A DNA stretch of 34,167 nt from Candidatus Zixiibacteriota bacterium (GTDB lineage: Bacteria; JAAXHH01), in NCBI GenBank assembly GCA_016867335.1, contig VGJU01000012.1, positions 1 to 34,167 on the forward strand. Direction: 5' to 3'. The notes beneath the pieces were generated by a model. It ran no database searches. It was not told the origin of the DNA and worked only from the letters and a program-made list of their open reading frames with translations. The position numbers and the translations under genes were made by a program. Positions 3,781 through 33,943 of the stretch are shown here, piece after piece. The stretch's first letter is position 1; every line of letters starts with the position of its first letter.

Positions 3781-4245
3781 TTACGTTTCAGAGACCGGGC
3801 CGATTAACAGCATAAGGGTAAAACGGACGAGAAAGTGCGCGTACAGCGCGGCTACGAGGTCGTCGGCTACGACGCCAATCCCCCCCGGCAGTTTTTGCGC
3901 CCAGTTGGCCGGAAAAATTTTTATAATGTCCATGGCTCGAAAAAAAACAAAGCCGAGCAAAAAGGAAAGCCAACTCGACGGCAAAAAAGCCATGGTGACA
4001 ACCATCCCTATGATCTCATCGATCACGATCTGACGTCCGTCGTGTCCGAAACGTTTTTCTGCTGCGCCGGATACGTAGATCGCCGTCGCCACGCCGAAAA
4101 TCGCCACAATCGCGTAGACCGGCCAAGACAAAAAGGTAAGCACGTAAGCCAATGCTACCCCGACCAGACTACCAACGGTTCCCGGTGCTTTAGGAGCATA
4201 TCCGGCGTAACATCCGGTGGCAAGAAAAACAGCGACGGTGTTCAT
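3781..4245 (-). CDS. pgpA: Phosphatidylglycerophosphatase A
   Basis: 154-residue integral membrane enzyme that dephosphorylates phosphatidylglycerophosphate to phosphatidylglycerol, the step after PgsA. Family hallmarks are PKAPGTVGSLVG near the N-terminus, DEIIGM in the middle, and RAMDIIKIFP followed by GGIGVVADD near the C-terminus. Several hydrophobic segments span the protein. A reading frame open further upstream is only antisense-like extension through pgsA; the true start is ATG 4245, two bases after the pgsA stop. Having pgsA and pgpA adjacent and almost overlapping makes a two-step phospholipid module. Confidence 0.92.
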   Translation of the reverse strand: MNTVAVFLATGCYAGYAPKAPGTVGSLVGVALAYVLTFLSWPVYAIVAIFGVATAIYVSGAAEKRFGHDGRQIVIDEIIGMVVTMAFLPSSWLSFLLGFVFFRAMDIIKIFPANWAQKLPGGIGVVADDLVAALYAHFLVRFTLMLLIGPVSET

Positions 4246-7679: not shown

Positions 7680-7693
7680 AAAAAAGGTCGTGC
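7680..7693 (-). terminator. U-tract directly after the SRP RNA closing helix
   Basis: The 3' strand of the SRP RNA terminal helix (GCACGACC, minus strand 7693 to 7686) is followed at once by six T residues. A stable helix followed by a U-run looks like an intrinsic terminator that also defines the RNA 3' end. Some read-through or a weak separate promoter would be needed for dnaX, which begins only 41 bases downstream. Confidence 0.5.
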
Positions 7694-7959
7694 ACCCACC
7701 TTCGAATGTCCTCGCGTCTGGAGTATCCAAGCCGACAGCTCCGGCCAGGTGGCCCCACGGCACACGAGAGGGGTCGCTTACCGCTGCTACCTTCCGGTCC
7801 TGACGGGGTTCGGCGATCTCACGTTGCGCAGGACCTGACTCTCAACACTGCGGCTGTAAGATACCGACAGCGCAAGATCAACCCTCGGAATGGGAATTCA
7901 ACCCCGCTGTAGCGGATTGCGGGTTACAGGGCACCGCTAACTCCCCGTCTAGCACGACC
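7686..7959 (-). ncRNA. ffs: Signal recognition particle RNA, bacterial large type
   Basis: About 274-nt SRP RNA that pairs with Ffh to target nascent membrane and secreted proteins. The domain IV signature GTCAGGACCGGAAGGTAGCA, with the conserved GGAA loop and AGCAGCGG, lies near 7780-7806 on the minus strand. The 5' half carries an Alu-type domain (AGACGGGGAGTTAGCGGTGC and a CCGCT/AGCGG hairpin). The ends are set by a perfect 8-bp closing helix, GGTCGTGC (7959-7952) with GCACGACC (7693-7686). An inner CAGGT/ACCTG pairing (7837-7833 with 7750-7746) closes the domain equivalent to 4.5S RNA. The tadA - SRP RNA - dnaX order is known from many bacteria. Confidence 0.92.
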
Positions 7960-7969
7960 AAAGACGCAG

Positions 7970-7987
7970 GGTCCGTCGGGTCGGACC
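7970..7987 (-). other. Hairpin between tRNA-Ala and SRP RNA
   Basis: Perfect 6-bp inverted repeat GGTCCG / CGGACC around a six-base loop, in the 34-base spacer between tRNA-Ala and the SRP RNA. There is no strong U-tract after it on the minus strand (CTGCGTCTTT). It may be a processing hairpin or weak terminator separating the two RNAs. Function is inference. Confidence 0.35.
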
Positions 7988-7993
7988 TTAAAA

Positions 7994-8066
7994 TGGAGCA
8001 GAGCGGGATCGAACCGCTGACCTCCAGAGTGCGATTCTGGCGCTCTCCCAACTGAGCTACTGCCCC
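7994..8066 (-). tRNA. tRNA-Ala(CGC)
   Basis: 73-nt cloverleaf. The anticodon stem-loop CCAGA-ATCGCAC-TCTGG gives anticodon CGC, which reads GCG (Ala). The acceptor stem GGGGCAG/CTGCTCC contains the G3-U70 wobble pair, the alanine identity element. The discriminator is A73. The CCA end is not encoded. It lies 19 bases after tRNA-Ser(GGA). Confidence 0.97.
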
Positions 8067-8085
8067 GATCTCATATAACCATTAA

Positions 8086-8173
8086 CGGAGAGGGTGGGAT
8101 TCGAACCCACGGTCCACTTTAGGTAGACACACGCTCTCCAGGCGTGCCGATTCAACCGCTCTCGCACCTCTCC
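8086..8173 (-). tRNA. tRNA-Ser(GGA)
   Basis: 88-nt class II tRNA. Anticodon stem-loop CACGC-CTGGAGA-GCGTG gives GGA, reading UCC/UCU. A long variable arm (GTCTAC/GTGGAC stem) marks it as Ser type, and the discriminator is G73. CCA is not encoded. It shares acceptor, D-arm and T-arm sequence with the upstream tRNA-Ser(CGA), so the pair arose by duplication. Confidence 0.96.
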
Positions 8174-8195
8174 GTGTTTCTATGAAACCTTCCAG

Positions 8196-8280
8196 CGGAG
8201 AGGGTGGGATTCGAACCCACGGTGCCCGTAGGCACAACGGTTTTCGAGACCGTCCGATTCAACCGCTCTCGCACCTCTCC
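8196..8280 (-). tRNA. tRNA-Ser(CGA)
   Basis: 85-nt class II tRNA. Anticodon stem-loop ACGGT-CTCGAAA-ACCGT gives CGA, reading UCG. The variable arm stem is GTGCC/GGCAC and the discriminator is G73. CCA is not encoded. Its first 22 bases overlap the end of tadA: the tadA TGA stop lies in the D-arm region. Maturation of the tRNA 5' end would cut the tadA message. Confidence 0.96.
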
Positions 8281-8756
8281 GTTTCTTCGGATTTGTGGCG
8301 CACCTCCCGGAAAAACACACGCAACATTTCCGCACACTCGGGCTGCAACACGCCTCGTACTACCTTAACCCGGTGGTTAAGACGGGCATCCTGCACGATA
8401 TTTCGCAGAGAACCGCAGGCGCCCGTTTTGGCGTCGTCCGCTCCGTAGACCAAACAGCCTATGCGGGCAAGTACGATCGCTCCGGCGCACATGGCGCAAG
8501 GCTCAAGGGTCGCGTACAACGTCGCACCGGTCAGTCGCTCATAGCCGAGCGTTTGGGTGGCGGCACGTATCGCCAACATCTCCGCGTGCGCCGTAGGATC
8601 GCGCTGACGTAATACCCGGTTCTGATCACGCCCTAACATCCGACCGTCACAGACGATCACCGCTCCTACAGGCACTTCGCCCTTTGCAGCAGCGGCTTGC
8701 GCCTCTTCAATCGCCAAACGCATCCACCGTTCATGCCCATCGGGGTCGGTTGTCAT
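8259..8756 (-). CDS. tadA: tRNA-specific adenosine deaminase (A34 to inosine)
   Basis: 165-residue cytidine/deoxycytidylate-deaminase-fold enzyme that converts A34 of tRNA-Arg(ACG) to inosine. The zinc and catalytic motifs are HAEMLAI (His ligand and proton-shuttling Glu) and PCAMCAGA (two Cys ligands), and the N-terminal half has [10 protein letters not shown]. Length is normal. ATG 8756 has GAGG six bases upstream. The last residues (ETERCESG) are encoded by the 5' end of tRNA-Ser(CGA), a 22-base overlap. The gene begins 11 bases after tRNA-Arg(ACG), its expected substrate. Confidence 0.96.
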
Positions 8757-8767
8757 ACACGCCTCAA

Positions 8768-8841
8768 TACGCCCGGAGGGAGTCGAACCCCCAACCTCCT
8801 GATCCGTAGTCAGGTGCTCTATCCAATTGAGCTACAGGCGC
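8768..8841 (-). tRNA. tRNA-Arg(ACG)
   Basis: 74-nt cloverleaf. Anticodon stem-loop CCTGA-CTACGGA-TCAGG gives anticodon ACG, whose A34 is the TadA editing site. Acceptor GCGCCTG pairs with CGGGCGT, leaving a G1-U72 wobble at the end; the discriminator is A73. CCA is not encoded. It is the first gene after the promoter at 8869-8897 and heads the tRNA/tadA/SRP RNA cluster. Confidence 0.96.
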
Positions 8842-8868
8842 ACGATCCCATGACGCAAAGAACACCCT

Positions 8869-23144: not shown

Positions 23145-26100
23145 ATGATACGTATGTTCAAATGGGTAGCAGGCGTATGCGGTGCGGGGCTGGTGCTCCT
23201 GTGCGCTACAGCTTTTGTGCTGTTTATGACTGCTTACGGCAGAGACGAGGTCCGGCGTTTTATCGAATGGCAGGCCGGAAAAAAGATCAACGGTCGTCTT
23301 TCCGTAGGTAAGGTGGCCGGCAGTCCGTGGGAGTACGTCTATCTCCAGGACGTATCGATCACCCTGCCCGGTTATCTTGGCGGCGCAGAAGTCGTCGGAG
23401 CCGACGAAATAAGCATAGGGGTGAGCGGCTGGGACTATCTGCGCTACGGACGCCCCGTTTCAGTGGTCAGAATAGACGGTCTTCGCATTGCCTATCTCCA
23501 AGACGTAGACGGAAAAGGGATGGACGCCATCACGGCGCTGACCGCCGGACGCACCGAAACCCCGGATACTTCCGTTACATCCGGGTTCAAACCCCCGTTT
23601 TCGATCCCGGAAATCCATATCGCCAGAGGTAGGTTTCTGTATTTCGATCCCCGTGATTCTACGGCGCTCGATGCCAAAAACTTCTTCTTGCGCGGCTCGA
23701 TGTGGAAATCGGGGCGGATCAAGGCCATCATCGGTACACACTCCTCCACGTTTACCCTCGACGGTTATACGGACAATCTGTCCACGATTTTTGCAAACGT
23801 AGAACTCCACGGCGATACGCTCAAGGTCAACGATCTTACCCTCGAAGCCACTGCCGCGCCACCGCTTGCTTTTCATGTGGAGGGTGTCGTTTCTTCCATC
23901 CGTAGCCGAACCGCCGATCTGACCGTAAAAGCCACCGGAAGCGTCGGCTCTATCACCCGCATTCTTGGGATGGGTACGCCAATAGAAGGACGGTTCAGTT
24001 TTTCGGCCTTTTTGCGCCATACCTTGACCGACCCGGATATCGAGGCCCATCTCGAATCTCCGATATTCGACACGGACATAGGGTCTTTCAAGCTGGTCTC
24101 CCTCGACTTGCGCTATGCGAGAAACGTTCTTGCTATCGATCGGTTCCGGGGGCGGCATGAGACAGGTACGCTTTCCGGACGGGCGCTGCTGGACATGTCG
24201 GCGCCGGAGTATCGGTACGAGTTGGTCGTCGCCCCTGCCGAGTTGGCGCTCGAAGCACTACCTTTCTCGCTTATCGGAGAAACATTTCCTGTGGTCGGCA
24301 AGGCCACGGTGGGGGCTGAATTGCATGGAATCGGGTTTGACGCGCTGCCCACACTGGCCCGTCTCGATATACAGGCCCCAACGCTTTGGATCGGGGGCAA
24401 AAGAGTGGACCGCATACAGGGAGAAGCCCGATATCGAAACGGCGATCTGCGTCTTTCCGTGCGCAATCCGGCGGCGCAAGTCGCCGTTTCAGGTACGATT
24501 CAAACAGGCGGAGTCGTTCATCTCGATGTAGAAGCGAAAGCGCCGGATATAAAAGCCGTCACCGATCTGCTGGGCATGACTCCCGTACAAGGGGCCGCCG
24601 ATCTTTCCGCTACGCTTGACGGGTCGATAGACCGCCCTGACATCCGGTTTAGCGGTCAGGCGCAAAAACTGCGTGTCGCCGAGGTGCCGCTAGGTCATCT
24701 GGAGGTCGCCGGTTTTTACGGGGCGGATCGAATGGTTCGTTTCGACGCACGGCTGGATACCACCCGGGCCGTGCTTTCCGGAGAGGTAGAATGGACCGGC
24801 GACTATCCGCTTACCGGCATGCTCAGAACCCAGAATCTCCGGTTGAAAGACTATATCGTCTCCGATCCGGGCATCGGGCTGGACGCACTGCTGAAAATCG
24901 AAGGAGAACTGGAGGGAACCCTCGCAAATCCGCTATTTCGAGGCAACGGGCTGGTACAGGACCTGACGCTGCGCGGGGCCGACTTGGGCAACGCCAGTGT
25001 GGCGATCAAACTGAGGAATCCGGATCTTACCTTTACCATCGTCAAACCCGACCTTTCGGTTATAGCGGACGGATTGGTCAGCCTTACCGACGGTTATCCG
25101 TACGATCTGCGGGTCAACATCAAACGGGCCAATCTGTCGCCTGCGCTCGGCGTCATTGCCCGACGACCCATCGAAAGACGAACCGGGTGGGTGACCGGTC
25201 GCATCGAGGCAAAGGGGTTGGCTTCTTATCCGGACCAATCCACAGTGGTGATCGGTCTCGACTCGTTGGCTATGATCATGGACGATCGGAATCTCCACTT
25301 TTCGGCTCCCTCCACCATAAAACTCGACAAACAGTTGCTTACGATCGACCATTTTGAACTGGTTGGGGATATCGGCCATATCCTCGTCAACGGGATCGCC
25401 AGCCTTACACCCGGCGGCATCGTCAATCTCGAAGCGTTCCTCGAAGGCGTCCATTTGGATTTCGTATCTCCCTTCATGGTCTCTCAGGGGGCGCTCGACG
25501 GTACGCTCGACGGTCTTTTTTCACTTAACGGTTCACCCGACGCACCCACCTTGAACGGAACGTTGTATTCTGCCGATGTGTTCTACTCCGTAGACCGGCG
25601 TGTAAACCAGATCGGATCGATCTCCGCATCGGTACTCTATGAAGATCGAATGCTCAGAATGCCTGCGCTAAACATCCGCACGCCCATGGGATCGTCGATG
25701 GCCAGCGTCGAGTATCCTATCGATCTTCGCTGGGCAGGCGGAGATACGCTTCCGCTTGATACTCGGTATACCGCGTCCGCGGTGATGGAAAATCTTTCCA
25801 TCGCGCCGTTGCGCGAATTGGTGTCGGGTTTTATGCAGGGACTGGACGGTCTAATTCATGGCCGCATCGAACTTGTCGGCTCCACCATCAACCCGGAAGA
25901 ACTGACCGGAACCGTAGCCATCGACGCGCTCCGTCTTACCGGGCTTCAAAACGAGTTGGTCAACACCGATTCGATCCTGATTGCATTTAGCAGAGGCTAT
26001 GCGGACGTGAAAACCTTCGATGTCGTTATCCGCCCGCTCCATGATGCCGCCGTCTTGCTTGGCCGCATCTCCGCAAAGGGACGGCTGGCGTACGGGACCG

Positions 26101-27797
26101 GTCTGAAACAGCCGGTCGAATCCGACTTTCAGGCATCGTTCGACCATGTAGCCATCGATGCCGCGCTGTCGCTTACCGATATCGACGTCCCGCTGAGCGG
26201 TTTGGTGGACGGTCGTATTACCGTTTCCGGACCGCCTTCCGAAACTTCCATAGACACCCGGTTTTCCGCGGGTCAGATTCGATACAACGACGCCCTGATG
26301 GACAGCATAACCGGTCGGATCGTCTACGGACACGATCAGCTTGTTCTCCATGATCTCTCTTTTCTAATAAAAGGGAACCTGCTTGCTGCATACGGCAATA
26401 TACCGCTTTCTCCCGATACCGGCGGTATGGCGATTACGATCGAGGGAACCGCGATCGATCTTTCCTTTCTCAACGGTGGTCTGTACGAACTGGAAAGGGT
26501 GGGAGGAACGGCGGATATTCGACTGGCTGTGGGCGGAACGCCGACGGCGCCGCGATCCCAAGGCGAAATCTATATCCGAAACGCTGACATTCAGATACGG
26601 GACGTCAACCCCCCGCTCAGAGCGCCGGAGATGCGTTTTCGGGTCGAAGAAAATCGTATCGTCCTTCGACCAGTCGAGTTCAAGACGGGCAAAGGAAAGA
26701 TAAGTCTATCCGGGCGGGCGACCTTCGACCGATCCGGTATAGACGATTTCGAAACCCAACTGGCGCTGAGCCGCTCCGAAATCGAAATGGTCGGAACGGC
26801 GCGTGTGGTCGTCAACGGAACGCTCTCGGTAACGGGAAATCGGAAACGGTCTCAGGCGATCAGTGTCAACGCACCGATTTCACTGGCCGGATCCATTATC
26901 TATCCGCTCGACCTAAGCGATCTTGTGCTGGGAACGGGAGCCGTTATACGCCCACCCAAAGCGCCGGATCCTTTTCTGGAAAACATGCAGCTCGACGTCG
27001 AGCTGGACGTTCCTTCCCTGCGGGTGAAAAACGATCTGGCGGATATGGAATTGGAGGGCGGACTGGCGTTTTCCGGTACGGCCCAAAATCCTATCGTCAC
27101 TGGTTATGCCACGGCAAAAGAGGGTGGAAATATCGTCTATATAGACACGCGGTTTGCTGTGGAGACAGGACGCATCGAATTTATTCTCCGGAATCCGCTG
27201 GAAAGCTTCGTAGCGCTGATCGACGATCCTATCCAGCAACTCGATCCGCAGATTACACTGATAGCGCGCGCCCCCCGCGTGCGGGACATCTATGGAGCCG
27301 AATACGAGGTCGTTCTTGGGTTAAACGGACGCACGCTACAGCTAAGCCCTCAACTTACCGCCGCCCCGATCGACAACGTAGGATCGAACGCTCCGCAGTC
27401 CAATCTGGTAGATCAGGAGGTCGTGTCGTTGCTTACCTTCGGTTTGCCGGGCATTACCACCGAGGGGGCGACCGACGCGGTGGCGGGGCTTGGGCAGCGC
27501 GCACTGCTCATGGCCACGGGAAGTTCGGCGCAGCGTGTCCTGAAACTCGACGAATTTCGTATCGAAGGCGATGTCTTCAACAACCGAGAAACCAGAACCC
27601 CGGCGCAGATTACCATCAGCAAGCGGATCAACCAGCGGGCACAGGTGACGTTTACCCGGCTGTTCGACTCGTCGGACTACAAACTCCGCGTGGGTTATCA
27701 GTTGACAAACTATCTGTTTATCGAGACATTTACCGACCAACTGAGCGAGCACCCGCAAAACGGTCTTGACCTCAAAGTAAAATTCCGATTCCGATGA
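23145..27797 (+). CDS. tamB: Translocation and assembly module / AsmA-like protein TamB
   Basis: 1550-residue envelope protein of the TamB (DUF490) / AsmA-like group, which bridges the inner and outer membranes and is linked to phospholipid transport and outer-membrane protein assembly. An N-terminal transmembrane anchor (VAGVCGAGLVLLCATAFVLF) is followed by a very long run of beta-rich repeats. The C-terminal ~400 residues carry the conserved TamB domain, ending KRINQRAQVTFTRLFDSSDY and the YQLTNYLFIETFTDQ block. ATG 23145 has GAAGG ten bases upstream. The stop overlaps the Omp85 gene by four bases, the known tamA/bamA-tamB partnership with gene order reversed. Confidence 0.88.
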   Translation: MIRMFKWVAGVCGAGLVLLCATAFVLFMTAYGRDEVRRFIEWQAGKKINGRLSVGKVAGSPWEYVYLQDVSITLPGYLGGAEVVGADEISIGVSGWDYLRYGRPVSVVRIDGLRIAYLQDVDGKGMDAITALTAGRTETPDTSVTSGFKPPFSIPEIHIARGRFLYFDPRDSTALDAKNFFLRGSMWKSGRIKAIIGTHSSTFTLDGYTDNLSTIFANVELHGDTLKVNDLTLEATAAPPLAFHVEGVVSSIRSRTADLTVKATGSVGSITRILGMGTPIEGRFSFSAFLRHTLTDPDIEAHLESPIFDTDIGSFKLVSLDLRYARNVLAIDRFRGRHETGTLSGRALLDMSAPEYRYELVVAPAELALEALPFSLIGETFPVVGKATVGAELHGIGFDALPTLARLDIQAPTLWIGGKRVDRIQGEARYRNGDLRLSVRNPAAQVAVSGTIQTGGVVHLDVEAKAPDIKAVTDLLGMTPVQGAADLSATLDGSIDRPDIRFSGQAQKLRVAEVPLGHLEVAGFYGADRMVRFDARLDTTRAVLSGEVEWTGDYPLTGMLRTQNLRLKDYIVSDPGIGLDALLKIEGELEGTLANPLFRGNGLVQDLTLRGADLGNASVAIKLRNPDLTFTIVKPDLSVIADGLVSLTDGYPYDLRVNIKRANLSPALGVIARRPIERRTGWVTGRIEAKGLASYPDQSTVVIGLDSLAMIMDDRNLHFSAPSTIKLDKQLLTIDHFELVGDIGHILVNGIASLTPGGIVNLEAFLEGVHLDFVSPFMVSQGALDGTLDGLFSLNGSPDAPTLNGTLYSADVFYSVDRRVNQIGSISASVLYEDRMLRMPALNIRTPMGSSMASVEYPIDLRWAGGDTLPLDTRYTASAVMENLSIAPLRELVSGFMQGLDGLIHGRIELVGSTINPEELTGTVAIDALRLTGLQNELVNTDSILIAFSRGYADVKTFDVVIRPLHDAAVLLGRISAKGRLAYGTGLKQPVESDFQASFDHVAIDAALSLTDIDVPLSGLVDGRITVSGPPSETSIDTRFSAGQIRYNDALMDSITGRIVYGHDQLVLHDLSFLIKGNLLAAYGNIPLSPDTGGMAITIEGTAIDLSFLNGGLYELERVGGTADIRLAVGGTPTAPRSQGEIYIRNADIQIRDVNPPLRAPEMRFRVEENRIVLRPVEFKTGKGKISLSGRATFDRSGIDDFETQLALSRSEIEMVGTARVVVNGTLSVTGNRKRSQAISVNAPISLAGSIIYPLDLSDLVLGTGAVIRPPKAPDPFLENMQLDVELDVPSLRVKNDLADMELEGGLAFSGTAQNPIVTGYATAKEGGNIVYIDTRFAVETGRIEFILRNPLESFVALIDDPIQQLDPQITLIARAPRVRDIYGAEYEVVLGLNGRTLQLSPQLTAAPIDNVGSNAPQSNLVDQEVVSLLTFGLPGITTEGATDAVAGLGQRALLMATGSSAQRVLKLDEFRIEGDVFNNRETRTPAQITISKRINQRAQVTFTRLFDSSDYKLRVGYQLTNYLFIETFTDQLSEHPQNGLDLKVKFRFR

Positions 27798-29662
27798 GGG
27801 TATCTTCTACAGACTCCATGCCCTTGACCGCTTTCTCCGTCTTTTCCGCGTCTGCCGTTTTCCGGCATTTTTTTCCGGCATTTTTTTCCCTGTTGCTGTT
27901 TGTCGTCCGTCCGTGTCTTGGCCAGACGCAATCACCTGTCATCGACCGTATCGTCGTGGAAGGAAACACTTTTATCAACGAGGATCGTATCAAGGACCTC
28001 ATGATTACCAAGACGGGCGGATTGTTTCGCAAAAAACAGCTCAATCAGGCGCTTTTGCGTGCAGACGTAAATGCGATAGAGAATTTCTATCGAAACAGTG
28101 GGTTCCTGAGCGTCCGGGTGCGTTCCACACGCGATGCTTTGCGCGAAAACCGGGTAGTCGTACGTATCGCGATCGACGAGGGACCTCGGTATCGGGTGCG
28201 GACAGTGGCTATCGTCGGCAACCGCTATCTTGCGGAGGACGATATCAGAAAAAATCTGCTGACCAAGGCAGGTCTGCCGTACTATCAACTTTTTGCCGCT
28301 GCCGACAAAAGAGCCATCGCCGCGCTTGCCGAGCGTCATGCGTTGCTGGATGCCGAAACGCGACTCGAACAAACGCTGAGCGAGGCCGATACCAGCATCA
28401 CCGTTACTTTTTTTATCGATGAAGGCGAGCCGAGCCGAGTGGGTGAAATTCGAGTACGGGGGCTTCAGAAGACCCACCCGTTTGTCGTGTTGCGCGAACT
28501 CGAACTCCGCAAGGGCGATCTATATGACAACAGCAAGATGGCCCGGAGCCAGACCCGGCTGTTTCAGACCGGTCTGTTTCGTAGCGTCCGTATGGAACCG
28601 GCCCGTTCCGATTCGGCTACTCATGCGCGTGACTTGTTGGTCAGCGTGATCGAACTGCCCGGCGGTGAGTTTAGCTTTGGCGGGGGCTTTGCCTCGGTAG
28701 AGCGGTTCCGGGGTAGCTTTAGCATCGCCCACCGAAATTTTCTGGGCCGGGCCATCACCATAGGAACCAACGCCCAAGCCAGTCTGCTCGTCCAGCAGGT
28801 CGATGCAGGCATCACCCAGCCTTGGCTTTTCAAAACCCGCACCACGGGAACCCTGCGCGGGTTTTTTACCCGACAGGACCGCAGAAGCCATATACAGCGC
28901 GAATTCGGCGCATCGATCATCGGCGTCCGTGAACTTTCCCGCGCACTTCGCTCGCAGACCACCTATACTATCAAAAACGTACGGGTTACCTCTCTTAGCG
29001 ACTCGCTTACGGCTATCCTGCAAGGAAGCAGTGTGGCCGACAGTCTGCGATCGCGCCGTGAGGGCAGTCTGACGCAACTCGTTCTCTACGACACGCGAGA
29101 CGACCTGCTCAACCCGACCCAAGGCATGTTTTCGCAAGTACAGGCCAATCTGGCCAGCCCTTGGCTCGGCAGTTCCTCCGCCAACCAGAACTCCACGCTG
29201 ACCCTGAACGGCGTGTTGAGAAAATATATCCCGCTCGGCAGATTTCCCGACATCGCCACGTCCGTATCGTTCGGTTATGTGCGCGCCCTCAGCAAAGGCG
29301 TCATCCCCCTCGACAAACGGCTGTTGCTCGGTGGCGACAAGTCGGTCCGAGGATACGCCATTCACCAGATCGGTCAGCCGGACGGCGGTGTCGTCGCCTT
29401 TAGTTCGCAAAACGAGATACGAATACCCGTCGGGTCTCTGCTGTTTGCCGGCTTTGTCGATCTGGGTGGAACGGGAAAAACGCTTGCGTCCTTCGTATTG
29501 AATGACATACAGATTGGATACGGCGGCGGACTGCGTATAGGGACTCCTATCGGCATGATCCGGGGAGACATCGGTTTTCATCCCAAAGGAGACATAGATC
29601 CTCCAACCGCGGGGCTGTACGAACGAACGTACTTCTATTTCGGTCTGGGGCAGGCGTTTTGA
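27794..29662 (+). CDS. Omp85-family outer-membrane protein (BamA/TamA-like)
   Basis: 622 residues. A long hydrophobic signal region ends near CLGQTQ. POTRA domains follow: VIDRIVVEGNTFINEDRIKD, then YRVRTVAIVGNRYLAEDDIR and SRVGEIRVRGLQ. A 16-strand-type barrel occupies ~300-622, with the GGDKSVRGYAI motif (the VRGY/F lid-lock signature) and a C-terminal Phe typical of outer-membrane barrels. ATG 27794 overlaps tamB by four bases; Met at 27818 is an alternative that shortens the signal peptide. Three or so POTRAs and coupling to tamB favour a TamA-like role over the essential BamA. Confidence 0.88.
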   Translation: MRVSSTDSMPLTAFSVFSASAVFRHFFPAFFSLLLFVVRPCLGQTQSPVIDRIVVEGNTFINEDRIKDLMITKTGGLFRKKQLNQALLRADVNAIENFYRNSGFLSVRVRSTRDALRENRVVVRIAIDEGPRYRVRTVAIVGNRYLAEDDIRKNLLTKAGLPYYQLFAAADKRAIAALAERHALLDAETRLEQTLSEADTSITVTFFIDEGEPSRVGEIRVRGLQKTHPFVVLRELELRKGDLYDNSKMARSQTRLFQTGLFRSVRMEPARSDSATHARDLLVSVIELPGGEFSFGGGFASVERFRGSFSIAHRNFLGRAITIGTNAQASLLVQQVDAGITQPWLFKTRTTGTLRGFFTRQDRRSHIQREFGASIIGVRELSRALRSQTTYTIKNVRVTSLSDSLTAILQGSSVADSLRSRREGSLTQLVLYDTRDDLLNPTQGMFSQVQANLASPWLGSSSANQNSTLTLNGVLRKYIPLGRFPDIATSVSFGYVRALSKGVIPLDKRLLLGGDKSVRGYAIHQIGQPDGGVVAFSSQNEIRIPVGSLLFAGFVDLGGTGKTLASFVLNDIQIGYGGGLRIGTPIGMIRGDIGFHPKGDIDPPTAGLYERTYFYFGLGQAF

Positions 29663-29738
29663 AGAAATTCGAAGGGGAGGTTTGAACATCAGATCGCTTA
29701 CAACCTTCTTCACCTTTTACCCTTCAGAGGAGGTCTTC

Positions 29739-30026
29739 ATGATCCAGTTGCACATCTATCTCGACGTCGAACCGGGCAAGGAAAAAGCGCTCGAAGAAAC
29801 CTACCGCAACGCCTACGTGCCCGCTATTGTCGTGCAGGACGGCTATGTAAGCACGGCGCTTATCAAGTCGATGAACGGCATGCGCCGATATCAGATCGAT
29901 ATCGCGTTCGAAACCGAGGAAAAACGTCTCCACTGGGTAGCCTCCAAAGAACACCAAGAGGCATGGCCTTCCATCGACGCCCTGTGTCACACTATTACGT
30001 GGCAAGGGTTTGACGTGATCGCCTGA
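29739..30026 (+). CDS. Small ABM-like (antibiotic biosynthesis monooxygenase fold) protein
   Basis: 95 residues with the start IQLHIYLDVEPGKEKALEET and a following VQDGYVSTALIKS, a pattern seen in the dimeric alpha/beta ABM / ferredoxin-like family. The reaction is unknown, and such proteins range from haem-degrading to structural. ATG 29739 has an excellent AGAGGAGG six bases upstream, so an upstream in-frame ATG at 29682 is not the start. It lies 13 bases before the selenoprotein gene and may share its transcript. Confidence 0.7.
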   Translation: MIQLHIYLDVEPGKEKALEETYRNAYVPAIVVQDGYVSTALIKSMNGMRRYQIDIAFETEEKRLHWVASKEHQEAWPSIDALCHTITWQGFDVIA

Positions 30027-30039
30027 ACGGAGTTTTTGC

Positions 30040-31353
30040 ATGAATCTGTTGCGTGTTCGGGACGGATTTGCCGTCGCCATGCTGGCCGTCGCTGTCGCAT
30101 GGGTGGCGCAGGCGGCGGGCAAGCCTTCCCTGACCGTTCTTTATACCGGCAATACCAACGGGCAACTCGAAGTCTGCACGTGACCGGGGAATCCCTTCGG
30201 CGGTCTGCCGAGGCGAGCTACCCTGTTGCGTGAACTCGGAGTGGGACAAGCGCATACCCTGACCGTGGATGCCGGGGACCTGCTAGGCTGGCGACCGGAT
30301 GTCCGCAGACACGAGACGCTGCTCGACGGCATCCGGCAGATCGGCTATGACGTCATCGGGCTGGGCGACAACGATTTTGTAGACGGCGCCCCCTTTTTGT
30401 CGGATGCGATTCGGATGCGGAAACTGCCCGTCGTAGCCGCCAATATCGCCATGACGGCAAACAGCGGCGAGATCGCGCCCCCGTACCGGATCGTGAAAAA
30501 AGGCGGACTCCGCATCGGTGTCATCGGACTTGTTTCCGTAGAGAGTTTTCGCACCATGCCACCGTCTCGAATGAAAGAAATCGCGCCTACCGATCCGGCG
30601 GAGACGCTGCGCCGTTTATTGCCCGACGTCCGCAAAAAGTCGGATATCGTGATACTGCTCTCTCATGGCGGCGTGATGCGAGACCGAGAACTGGCGCGGC
30701 AGTTTCCCGGTATCGCCGTCATCGTCGGCAGCCATGACCGCCATATCCTGCACACGCCGATCCGGGAGGGTGAAACGCTGATCGTTCAGGCCGGTCCGAA
30801 CGGCGCATACACAGGTGAACTCATTCTGGAAATCGACCGCAACAAACGGATACGCGATTACCGGGGACGGTTGATTCCGATAGACGAACACATCACGCCG
30901 GACCTTGCGCTCCAGCGTCGAATCGACGCTTACTACGAAACCCCGACCGGGCTGGTGCGCCAAGGCGCGTTACATACGCCCGACCGCACACCGTTTCAGG
31001 GCGCCAAATCCTGCCAACCTTGCCACCAAGACGCCTACCTCCAGTGGAAGGCTTCTCGCCATGCGCACGCATTCGAAACGCTTGTGCTCGAAAACAAAAA
31101 CACCCACCCGGAGTGCCTCGGTTGTCATACGACAGGATTCGGCCAGCCTTCCGGATACCGTGACACCGCCTCAACCCCGCATCTGTCGGACGTACAGTGC
31201 GAAGCGTGTCATCGCATGACCGCCGGACACGATTTTCCCTTGCCACGCAACCCCGTTCCACCCGTCACCCCTGAAGTCTGCACAGGGTGTCATACCCCCT
31301 CGCAGAGCCCGGGATTTCGATACGAAGAAGCATTGTCTCACGTAAAACACTGA
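30040..31353 (+). CDS. Selenoprotein: periplasmic metallophosphoesterase-like domain fused to a tetrahaem cytochrome c
   Basis: Read through the in-frame TGA at 30181, this is 437 residues with Sec48. A signal peptide (DGFAVAMLAVAVAWVAQAAG) precedes TGNTNGQLEVCT-Sec-PGNPFGGLPRRA, where Sec stands at the second Cys of a C-x-C-P-like motif. A 5'-nucleotidase/SoxB-like phosphoesterase fold follows (VDAGDLLG, GLGDNDF, LSHGG, GSHDRH), but the first metal motif D-x-H reads N-T-N. Four CxxCH haem sites stand at 325, 359, 387 and 414, as in c554-type domains. Coding signal, in-frame signal peptide and the SECIS hairpin at 30194-30213 argue against a pseudogene. ATG 30040 has GGAG seven bases upstream. 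Conventional calling starts at 30226 and loses all of this. Likely periplasmic redox protein; substrate unknown. Confidence 0.85.
30181..30213 (+). promoter_or_regulatory. UGA (Sec) codon and bacterial SECIS element
   Basis: UGA at 30181-30183 is followed by a stem CCU-(U)-CGGC / GCCG-AGG (30194-30201 with 30207-30213) with a bulged U at 30197 and apical loop GGUCU (30202-30206). Counting the U of UGA as 1, the bulged U is 17 and loop G-U are 23-24, the same numbering and same loop sequence that I recall for E. coli fdhF, where those bases contact SelB. Sequence directly seen; SelB recognition is inferred. Confidence 0.85.
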
Positions 31354-31367
31354 CTACGGGATCGTTT

Positions 31368-32966
31368 ATGTTCTCAAAACCACAGTATCGTACATTTGCC
31401 TTTTACCGTTTTCCGGACGACCCCGGCCAGCGAGAGCAAAACCTCGACGGATGCGCAGCAAACGGTTTCAGCCACCTCATCCTGACTCGGAATATGGACC
31501 TCAAAGCCGTACTCGGCACCGAAGACGGAAAACGTCAACTCGTCTCTTTTCTGGATGCCGCCGCCGCGCGGCAGATGGGATGCGTCCTGCCCATCGGCAA
31601 TCCCAGAGAACTGTATCTATTGCCGGACGTGAGAAAATGGCGGATGGACTATATCCGTCATGTGGCCGAATCGCTCGGCGCGCATCCGGCGGTCTATGCG
31701 CTGATGCTGGAAGACGCTCCGACAGGCGGTGCGCAGTTTGGCTTGGACCGTTGGAAAACCGTCACTACCGAGTTGGAAGGCCGAATGGAAGGACAACTAC
31801 TGACCGAAGCGGGGTATCAACACACCGTAACCACTTGGCAGATGGAACAGTATACCGCCTATGTCAAAGAAATGACGGAGACCGTCAAAAAGGTTCGCTC
31901 GCGTCTGAAAACCACGATTTGTTTTCATTGGGACGCCCTTTTCCCCGCCCGGACGCTGGTACATTTCCAAGATGTCGCGGCCTGTCTCGACTTTGTCGTC
32001 ATCGAGGCCGGTTCCGAGTCTGTCTACCACCCGATCCGAATGCGTTATCTGCCTCGGAGCGTCGTCGGTGCTGCCGCGACGCTGACCGACCGCGAGGTAT
32101 GGATGACAGTGGACGGACACGTTCCCTTCGGCGTGTACGGCCCTGTGCCAAAAGAAGTTCGAGAATGGACGCTTCAGGTCCGCGAGCAAGGCGTCCGGAC
32201 ATTTGGATGGCGTGAGGGCGCAAGCACCGAGCCCGATGCTCGTTCGGCGTTTTCGAGCGCGTACCGGGCGTCGGTTCTGAAGATCGCCCGCGGCATGGCG
32301 GAGCAGGAGGCGGACCGCAATGCCGCATCCGCAAACGCCTGTCTGGTGTCCATCGACTCGTTTGCCGCCCGGTTGCCATGGCTCGACTGCGCGACGGTCG
32401 GCATGGTCCTCGGTGCACACGCCGAAATGGGGCTTCGGTATGTGACCGACACGCAACTGCGTAGAGGGGAAAAACTCCAGAAAGTCCGCATGTTGGTTAC
32501 GACGCCTTGTCCGGTTTATCGAGCGGACTTGATCGAAAAGCTGGTCCGGTTTATGGAACAGGGTGGATGGATCGTAGCTTCGGGGAACGATTTTACGATG
32601 GACGAGCAACAGCGTTTCGCGCCGGCGCATGACCGACTGTTCGGGCTTCAGAAAGCGGAAGAATCGGAAAACGAAGACCACATTCTTCTTGCCGTTTCGT
32701 TGCCCTGGCTGGCCGAAGGAACCCTGCTGGAAACCGCGTGTCGCCGTGTGCGCGCGACCGGTGTAGACGGGCAGACGCGCGTACTGGGCCGCTGGGGAGA
32801 CGGAACCCCGGCCATGTTGCTGAAACGACACGGGAAAGGAGGTGGCCTCTATATCGGCACCGACCCGTATCAGGCGGCGCTCTTATCCGGAAATCCGTCC
32901 GACTGGGGGCGACTGTTTCGGTCCATCGCCGACCCGGACTGGCTCAAAACATGGAGTGAGGGATAA
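31368..32966 (+). CDS. Glycoside-hydrolase-like protein (TIM barrel plus GATase-like domain)
   Basis: 532 residues, not assigned to a numbered family. Residues ~1-310 look like a TIM barrel (FYRFPDDPGQREQNLDGC, SHLILTRN, VYALMLEDAP, TTICFHWD, VRTFGWREG). Residues ~345-460 resemble the GATase-like trimerisation domain of GH42-type enzymes (RMLVTTPCPVYRADLIEKLV, FMEQGGWIVAS). No signal peptide is obvious, so it is probably cytoplasmic. An upstream open extension overlaps the selenoprotein; ATG 31368 with GGGAT upstream is preferred, 14 bases after the preceding stop. Substrate unknown; Glu in LEDAP could be catalytic. Confidence 0.6.
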   Translation: MFSKPQYRTFAFYRFPDDPGQREQNLDGCAANGFSHLILTRNMDLKAVLGTEDGKRQLVSFLDAAAARQMGCVLPIGNPRELYLLPDVRKWRMDYIRHVAESLGAHPAVYALMLEDAPTGGAQFGLDRWKTVTTELEGRMEGQLLTEAGYQHTVTTWQMEQYTAYVKEMTETVKKVRSRLKTTICFHWDALFPARTLVHFQDVAACLDFVVIEAGSESVYHPIRMRYLPRSVVGAAATLTDREVWMTVDGHVPFGVYGPVPKEVREWTLQVREQGVRTFGWREGASTEPDARSAFSSAYRASVLKIARGMAEQEADRNAASANACLVSIDSFAARLPWLDCATVGMVLGAHAEMGLRYVTDTQLRRGEKLQKVRMLVTTPCPVYRADLIEKLVRFMEQGGWIVASGNDFTMDEQQRFAPAHDRLFGLQKAEESENEDHILLAVSLPWLAEGTLLETACRRVRATGVDGQTRVLGRWGDGTPAMLLKRHGKGGGLYIGTDPYQAALLSGNPSDWGRLFRSIADPDWLKTWSEG

Positions 32967-32980
32967 AACGGAGAGGTGAC

Positions 32981-33943
32981 ATGGCTTACCCTACGTTTGA
33001 CAGAAGCAAGCTGGTATTGCGACCGCTCGCCGAGCGAAAACACGATATGGGACTCGACTACGTGTTGCCGCTCGACGTGGAAACCCCGGTTTTCGATCAT
33101 CCTCATATACACACGGTGGCGGAGCGGATCGTATCCGCGCGCCGCAACGACCGGGCCGTCATCTTGCTCATGGGGGCGCACGTCATCAAGATGGGGGTAT
33201 CGCGGCATATCATCGACTTGATGGAACGCGGATGGATCACCCATATCGGGATGAACGGGGCCGGTCCGATCCATGATTACGAACTGGCTCTTATCGGGGC
33301 CACCACGGAGAGCGTGGCAAATTACATACGCACCGGTGAATTCGGGTTGTGGGAAGAAACGGGTCGGATCAACGATATCGTTCGGGAAGCGGCGCGGGAG
33401 GGCATCGGCATGGGGGAGGCAATAGGCCGCGCCATTGCCGAGGGGGATTTTCCTCACGGCGAGGTAAGTATCTTTGCCGCCGGATACCGACTGGGTATTC
33501 CGGTTACGGTGCATGTCGGCGTGGGGTACGACATCATCCATGAGCATCCGTCGTGCGACGGTGCGGCGCTGGGGGCGGCTTCGTATACGGACTTTCTGGT
33601 GCTGGCGCGCTCCGTGGATCGCTTGGAAGGGGGCGTCATGCTCAACGTGGGTTCGGCGGTCATGGGGCCGGAGGTCTATCTTAAGGCGCTCTCGATGGTG
33701 CGCAATGTCGCGCACCGTGAAGGGCGTCAGGTGGCGCATTTTACCACAGCCGTGTTCGATTTGCTGGAACTGGGAGACTACGGTTCGGAAGCGGCGAAAT
33801 CCGACCCCAGATACTATTACAGACCGTTCAAGACGATTCTGGTACGTACGGTACGAGACGGCGGAGAAAGCTACTATCTACAAGGCGACCACCGCGTTAC
33901 GCTACCGGACTTGCGTCGTCGGCTATGCGTCCTGCCGATCTGA
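32981..33943 (+). CDS. Deoxyhypusine synthase-like protein (bacterial family)
   Basis: 320 residues with strong likeness to the deoxyhypusine/homospermidine synthase superfamily: HVIKMGVSRHIIDLMERGWI, HIGMNGAGPIHDYELALIGA, the FGLWEETGRINDIV block, SIFAAGYRLGIPVTVHVGVG, DGAALGAASYTDF and VMLNVGSAVMGPEVYLKALS. Bacteria lack the eIF5A substrate, so the enzyme probably acts on another amine or is a homospermidine-synthase-like transferase. ATG 32981 has GAGAGG four bases upstream. The gene follows the glycoside-hydrolase-like gene by 14 bases and is the last plus-strand gene in the window. Confidence 0.82.
   Translation: MAYPTFDRSKLVLRPLAERKHDMGLDYVLPLDVETPVFDHPHIHTVAERIVSARRNDRAVILLMGAHVIKMGVSRHIIDLMERGWITHIGMNGAGPIHDYELALIGATTESVANYIRTGEFGLWEETGRINDIVREAAREGIGMGEAIGRAIAEGDFPHGEVSIFAAGYRLGIPVTVHVGVGYDIIHEHPSCDGAALGAASYTDFLVLARSVDRLEGGVMLNVGSAVMGPEVYLKALSMVRNVAHREGRQVAHFTTAVFDLLELGDYGSEAAKSDPRYYYRPFKTILVRTVRDGGESYYLQGDHRVTLPDLRRRLCVLPI

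Follow-up and report, generated by a model that had tools for sequence, protein, structure and literature searches.

The locus examined here raises the question of whether an in-frame UGA ends a gene or is decoded as selenocysteine (Sec), and what part the hairpin behind it plays. The window, meaning the entire stretch of DNA that was analyzed, comprises 34,167 nucleotides of a contig (VGJU01000012.1) from a Candidatus Zixiibacteriota bacterium. The UGA occupies positions 30181-30183 on the forward strand. Once it is read through, an open reading frame extends on the same strand from 30040 to 31353, encodes 437 residues with Sec at residue 48 (C46-T-U48), and ends with its own stop codon, TGA 31351-31353. 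The read-through product begins with a hydrophobic N-terminus, followed by the stretch YTGNTNGQLEVCT-U-PGNPFGGLPRRA; a domain resembling nucleotidases comes next, and then a cytochrome c554 domain. Reading frame, homology, motif conservation, hairpin, selB and selD, and fold were all obtained by computation. We are highly confident that this UGA is decoded as Sec with the aid of the hairpin, giving what is probably an exported redox protein; the insertion of Sec, the export, and the redox role are what we infer.

The best NCBIfam match of the product is NF041198, UshA-like (seleno)protein, with 264.4 bits. Because this score is below the curated cut-off of 275, we file the selenoprotein beside this family and not under it. 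The protein from genome G002, which is 51% identical, scores above the cut-off (281.2 bits, summed). The selenoprotein resembles the family in having CxU at the same place, a 5'-nucleotidase-like domain, a C-terminal cytochrome part, and an alternation between Sec and Cys. It differs in its motif (V-C-T-U-PGNPFGG versus P-C-G-U) and in being shorter (437 amino acids versus 519 profile positions).

The TGA takes the place of the second Cys in a C-x-C motif that is invariant among the aligned homologs; with U written as C, no variation is seen at residues 46 and 48 across 21 aligned proteins. The closest orthologs, from other genera, have TGA at the same codon (L031, L032, and L033, with 51%, 44%, and 41% identity). 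A search of 59 genomes gave a match in 46, and the nearest full-length proteins (from G002, G015, and G014) each contain one TGA. Within the phylum, 13 of 16 genomes matched; four of these, including the source genome, encode a protein with the TGA, the remaining matches are partial and without stops, and no further close orthologs were found in these 16 genomes. A family search of 384 genomes returned matches in 300, over the cut-off in 29.

A motif script was used to collect homologs for comparison; from 97 loci examined it extracted 69 places, and 62 sequences were kept, with TGA at the site in 38 and a Cys codon in 24. The seven places left out have neither TGA nor TGC nor TGT. Two of these, L037 and L102, look like genuine homologs in which C-x-C/U is replaced by C-P-T-C; this may be a third state of the motif. 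Nine of 37 homologous regions fetched are not represented: eight lack the motif (L112, L120, L125, L131, L134, L135, L140, and L143), and L124 was left out as a duplicate of L035. The script missed L034 (the G016 protein, 35% identical, without TGA), and one sequence counted as Sec, L138, lacks the first Cys (PSGU). One further relative from a contig scan was counted once with L031, because the sequence around the codon is identical.

These comparisons bear on the alternative that the UGA is a true stop or a sequencing error, leaving a pseudogene or a gene split at residue 47. TGA is an ordinary stop in this genome, ending the selenoprotein gene itself, and the assembly did not yield a tRNA-Sec, as this alternative would have it. 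However, the same TGA recurs in three other genera and also outside the phylum, it always stands where other homologs have Cys, and it is followed by 389 open codons with the heme motifs intact. We regard a stop or an error as extremely improbable, and we give no more credence to the idea that UGA has been reassigned throughout the genome, to Trp or Gly for instance. We saw no evidence for the latter; TGA is the stop codon of the selenoprotein gene and of the two genes preceding it, the homologs have Cys at the site and not Trp or Gly, and selB and selD are present.

In the source genome (G000), selB was identified with 381.2 bits (cut-off 242.25) and selD with 289.1 bits (cut-off 125). Of selA there is an 85-residue 3' piece only, in the first bases of contig C185 (L017), matching the C-terminal 63 profile positions. 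The search for tRNA-Sec in the source assembly gave a best score of 45.6 bits, below the threshold of 47, and the eight loci scanned are other tRNAs; a pattern search of the genome gave 23 matches, compared to four in a reversed control, and none of them was assigned to a tRNA-Sec. The selB frame is cut off by the end of contig C27 (L009). In G001, G014, and G002, ARAGORN placed a tRNA-Sec (tca) no more than about 100 bases beyond selB: in L104 at 3832-3929 (end of the selB match 3791), in L106 at 3917-4014 (3834), and in L105 on the opposite strand at 4529-4432 (4624). Since selB sits at a contig end here and is followed by tRNA-Sec in three relatives, selC would be expected just beyond the end of C27, and both it and most of selA are probably lost to assembly gaps. 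An automated tRNA-Sec scan would therefore label this genome Sec-negative.

To describe the hairpin, we number the U of the UGA as 1, so that position n is 30180+n. The minimum-energy fold is a helix of seven continuous base pairs at 30195-30213 on the forward strand (C15-G33, U16.G32, U17-A31, C18-G30, G19-C29, G20-C28, and C21-G27; -10.3 kcal/mol). Its apical loop, GGUCU (30202-30206, forward strand), begins with G and lies 18 nucleotides after the UGA. Folding 30193-30214 gives the hairpin with this loop as the structure of lowest energy (-10.7 kcal/mol, with 8 of 200 dinucleotide shuffles as good), and the hairpin is retained when 30181-30225 is folded (11 of 200 shuffles equally good). 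The general bacterial SECIS model of PMC13188914 (Figure 2A legend there) comprises a loop of 3-9 nucleotides and an upper stem of 4-16 base pairs, a G in the first two loop positions, a distance of 16-37 nucleotides between UGA and loop, and an energy at or below -7.5 kcal/mol. Comparison of the hairpin with this model gave agreement on 4 of 4 counts (loop of 5 nucleotides, stem of 7 base pairs, G first, spacing 18, -10.7 kcal/mol), and we found no differences from the model.

Both strands of the window contain 799 TGAs in total; a SECIS-like hairpin follows 36 of them under lenient settings and two under strict settings. The second strict match, presumably TGA 673 on the forward strand, was rejected, its frames being 14 and 43 codons. 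Among the strong hairpin-TGAs listed, the TGA at 30181 is the only one with long frames on both sides (54 codons before, 389 after). The string TGA-N18-GGTCTGC occurs once in the window, with 0.01 occurrences expected by shuffling.

The first-pass annotation had described the hairpin as matching the geometry of the E. coli fdhF element base for base. The bases that it named, U at 17, G23-U24, and the GGUCU, are present, and positions 22-28 (GGUCUGC, 30202-30208) are identical to the fdhF DNA; the fdhF SECIS also has its loop about 18 nucleotides from the UGA. We take U17, G23, and U24 to be the SelB contacts in fdhF. The pairing, however, is shifted by one. In fdhF, C20-G27 and A21-U26 close a GGUC loop, whereas in the window C21-G27 closes GGUCU; the 3' strand is one base out of register, and the remaining stem bases differ. 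A 7-mer in common with fdhF need not mean a common geometry.

The bulge at U17 that had been proposed is likewise not favored. In the bulged register, CCU (30194-30196, forward strand) would form the 5' side of an alternative lower stem (C14-G33, C15-G32, and U16-A31), with an energy of -8.9 kcal/mol, 1.4 kcal/mol weaker than the unbulged helix, and this register is broken in L032 and L033. In fdhF, the bulged U can be placed in two ways with the same energy, -5.7 kcal/mol; therefore, the bulge is unavoidable in fdhF and avoidable in the window. Binding of SelB could nevertheless bring about a bulge in the window RNA. The hairpin is an ordinary bacterial SECIS and not an exact copy of that from fdhF.

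The helix was compared between the window (L030) and its three closest orthologs. All four share the 5' strand CUUCGGC; the 3' strand reads GCCGAGG in L030 and L031 and GCCGAAG in L032 and L033. All seven pairs are kept in all four close Sec sequences, and the single stem pair that varies changes from U.G to U-A. With G32 replaced by A, the unbulged helix gains U16-A32, and the bulged register loses C15-G32. The loop, GGUCU in the window, reads GGUUU, GGUUU, and GGCCU in the orthologs. Position 24, a U in the window, is variable, with C in L033 and A or G in some other Sec homologs; a conserved G23-U24 is, like the bulge at U17, not supported. The description of the stem bases as differing while keeping their pairing is apt for the distant Sec homologs and less so for the closest four, with their one varying pair. 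Pair exchanges, for which the first-pass annotation had suggested comparing the stem across homologs, are seen in Sec homologs of the GGLP type. In ten such sequences, pair 18-30 is C-G in four and G-C in six, and pair 21-27 is C-G in six, A-U in two (L107 and L114), and unpaired in two; the two A-U exchanges, found in one family of bacteria, may represent one event.

Part of this hairpin is produced by the codons for Gly-Gly-Leu-Pro. The loop Gs at 22 and 23 belong to the invariant second Gly codon, and the GG of Gly pairs with the CC of Pro. Because much of the hairpin arises from the Gly-Gly-Leu codons alone, hairpins of this kind have to be checked against Cys-containing relatives and synonymous recoding. 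The alternative to be weighed against hairpin-aided decoding is that the Gly-Gly-Leu-Pro-Arg-Arg codons give rise to the hairpin as a by-product, the UGA being decoded as Sec through another signal. We consider this very improbable, although G22, G23, and two of the stem pairs do follow from the protein. The third-base pairs 21-27, 18-30, and 15-33, which are least bound by the protein, are kept, with pair exchanges, in 8, 10, and 7 of the ten GGLP-type Sec sequences, compared to 1, 2, and 1 of three Cys sequences.

For the recoding null, synonymous codons were drawn according to the gene's own codon use, with the loop either held at the Gly codon (local) or allowed the full range of the model (relaxed). 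The hairpin in the window has p values of 0.043 (local) and 0.18 (relaxed), the latter as expected of a by-product; the local p values for the orthologs L031, L032, and L033 are 0.005, 0.028, and 0.172. As groups, the Sec genes beat synonymous recoding (Wilcoxon 2.4e-4 local, 1.4e-8 relaxed), whereas the Cys genes do not (0.118 local, 0.126 relaxed), and a local p below 0.05 is reached by 12 of 38 Sec and 2 of 24 Cys sequences, which argues against the by-product. A model-type hairpin at or below -7.5 kcal/mol occurs in 37 of the 38 Sec sequences and in 17 of the 24 Cys sequences (Fisher 0.004). Over all sequences, the mean energies of the model-type hairpins are -14.3 and -10.0 kcal/mol, and the mean z values versus recoding are -0.88 and -0.25, respectively (Mann-Whitney p 0.0026). 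On the local statistic, Sec and Cys sequences do not differ significantly (p 0.052 for the energy, 0.093 for z). All of these group tests ignore relatedness; the Sec/Cys label needs nine changes on the tree, and the independent contrasts on well-supported branches number two, too few to test. The hairpins of both groups are stronger at the site than 99 bases further on, which fits a contribution by the protein sequence itself.

The closest relatives give a direct comparison. The clade containing the window (support 95/88) holds four Sec sequences and six Cys sequences (L035, L126, L108, L119, L099, and L101). At the homologous place, each of the four Sec sequences forms seven continuous pairs, versus 0, 0, 3, 1, 0, and 0 in the Cys sequences; the local hairpin energy is -1.6 kcal/mol in L035 and 0 in the other five. 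The same hairpin in Cys homologs, which the first-pass annotation had named as evidence against function, is thus missing at this site from all six of the nearest relatives with Cys. The central claim of that annotation, a hairpin after the UGA that looks like a functional SECIS, is well supported by the homologs, the Sec machinery genes, and this comparison. In the relaxed search, L099 shows a different hairpin (-14.1 kcal/mol, 9-nucleotide loop, p 0.03).

Five of the 24 Cys homologs have a local hairpin at or below -7.5 kcal/mol (L077, L078, L084 with -16.6, L093, and L110 with -13.4), in line with the by-product alternative. Hairpins in Cys genes as relics of Sec ancestry are described for other families in a passage of PMC1794560, and by analogy some of those seen here could be such relics. 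The best hairpin lies 18-19 nucleotides from the UGA in 20 of the 38 Sec homologs. In 13 of the 38 (L036, L095, L096, L115, L116, L121, L127, L128, L130, L132, L137, L139, and L141), the best model-type hairpin is 28 nucleotides away and has a 3-nucleotide loop (GGC or GGA); SECIS placement may differ within the family, or codon bias at Arg-Arg may make false hairpins.

The fold of the protein was predicted with AlphaFold (mean pLDDT 82). Residues 1-26 (30040-30117, forward strand) are a probable signal peptide, with a hydrophobic N-terminal helix at residues 3-25 of the predicted model. About residues 30-300 (30127-30939, forward strand) form a domain with the 5'-nucleotidase/SoxB fold. In a Foldseek search, the model matched the 5'-nucleotidase 3ivd (E 8.9e-26), and VIA-align superimposed 276 residues on this structure (Z 34.5, rmsd 2.3); the thiosulfohydrolase SoxB also matches (Z about 32), and phmmer identified 2z1a (E 2.2e-20). 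UshA, SoxB, and the selenoprotein have this fold in common (Z about 32-34), and the heme domain is an addition in the selenoprotein. Compared to 2z1a, the 5'-nucleotidase of T. thermophilus, T-N-D-T-H is replaced by T-G-N-T-N and G-N-H-E by G-D-N-D. We assume that TNDTH and GNHE supply the hydrolase residues of 2z1a; hydrolysis by the selenoprotein is doubtful, because the D and H of the former are both replaced by N and the latter has become GDND. The C-terminal domain is of the cytochrome c554 type (31012-31293, forward strand; PF13435, E 1.8e-16), with four CxxCH motifs at residues 325-329, 359-363, 387-391, and 414-418 (tetraheme), all four invariant in 21 aligned sequences.

In the mechanism that we propose, SelB with Sec-tRNA(Sec) would be held by the hairpin at 30195-30213 while the ribosome is at the UGA, and Sec would then be inserted at position 48. 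The resulting Cys46-x-Sec48 pair would lie just after the old D-x-H metal motif, on a degenerate domain of the 5'-nucleotidase/SoxB fold, and the fused tetraheme cytochrome c554 domain would supply or take electrons. The invariant Cys-x-Sec pair together with the four hemes suggests that the protein donates electrons to, or accepts them from, a thiol- or chalcogen-type substrate.

The family is not new, because UshA-like selenoproteins with CxU have been in print since 2008; "COG0737, UshA-like, CxU" is an entry in the GOS selenoproteome table of that year (PMC2398784). UshA-like CxU is also found in a table of PMC9312934 and NF041198 in a table of PMC13188914. The passages on the family in this literature give no function for CxU UshA-like proteins. 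The selenoprotein is an additional, borderline-scoring member of this known family, and its hairpin type is also known; it is a clear case of Sec being used by a phylum about which little is known. A more far-reaching reading, which we offer tentatively and hold to be somewhat less probable than its opposite, joins these elements. In it, this small, little-known phylum would have a branch of its own of CxU UshA-like tetraheme selenoproteins, with a fixed unbulged 7-bp SECIS whose loop is GGYYU, encoded downstream of tamB and bamA in two or more genera. The degenerate nucleotidase would have turned into an envelope selenol/heme oxidoreductase, and SelB would have its own recognition geometry.

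The selenoprotein gene lies downstream of tamB and bamA in the window (23145-31353). Positions 1-4296 of L029 show the order tamB, bamA, UshA-like selenoprotein, and a similar 540-residue protein, as judged by comparing translations by eye. The order tamB, bamA, selenoprotein, and protein of 530-540 amino acids thus appears to be common to two genera; a small ABM-domain gene between bamA and the selenoprotein gene is found in the window only, versus L029. Elsewhere in the window, a bacterial large SRP RNA is located beside four tRNA genes (Ala, Ser, Ser, and Arg) at 7688-8842; the Rfam scan of the window returned this RNA and the four ordinary tRNAs only. The gene at 31368-32966 encodes a 532-amino-acid protein, for which there was no Pfam match at E 0.001; the protein beside the L029 selenoprotein is similar to it. 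The gene at 32981-33943 encodes a GSU2086 family protein (NF052581, 400.9 bits) that weakly resembles an ArgZ-like C-terminal Rossmann domain.
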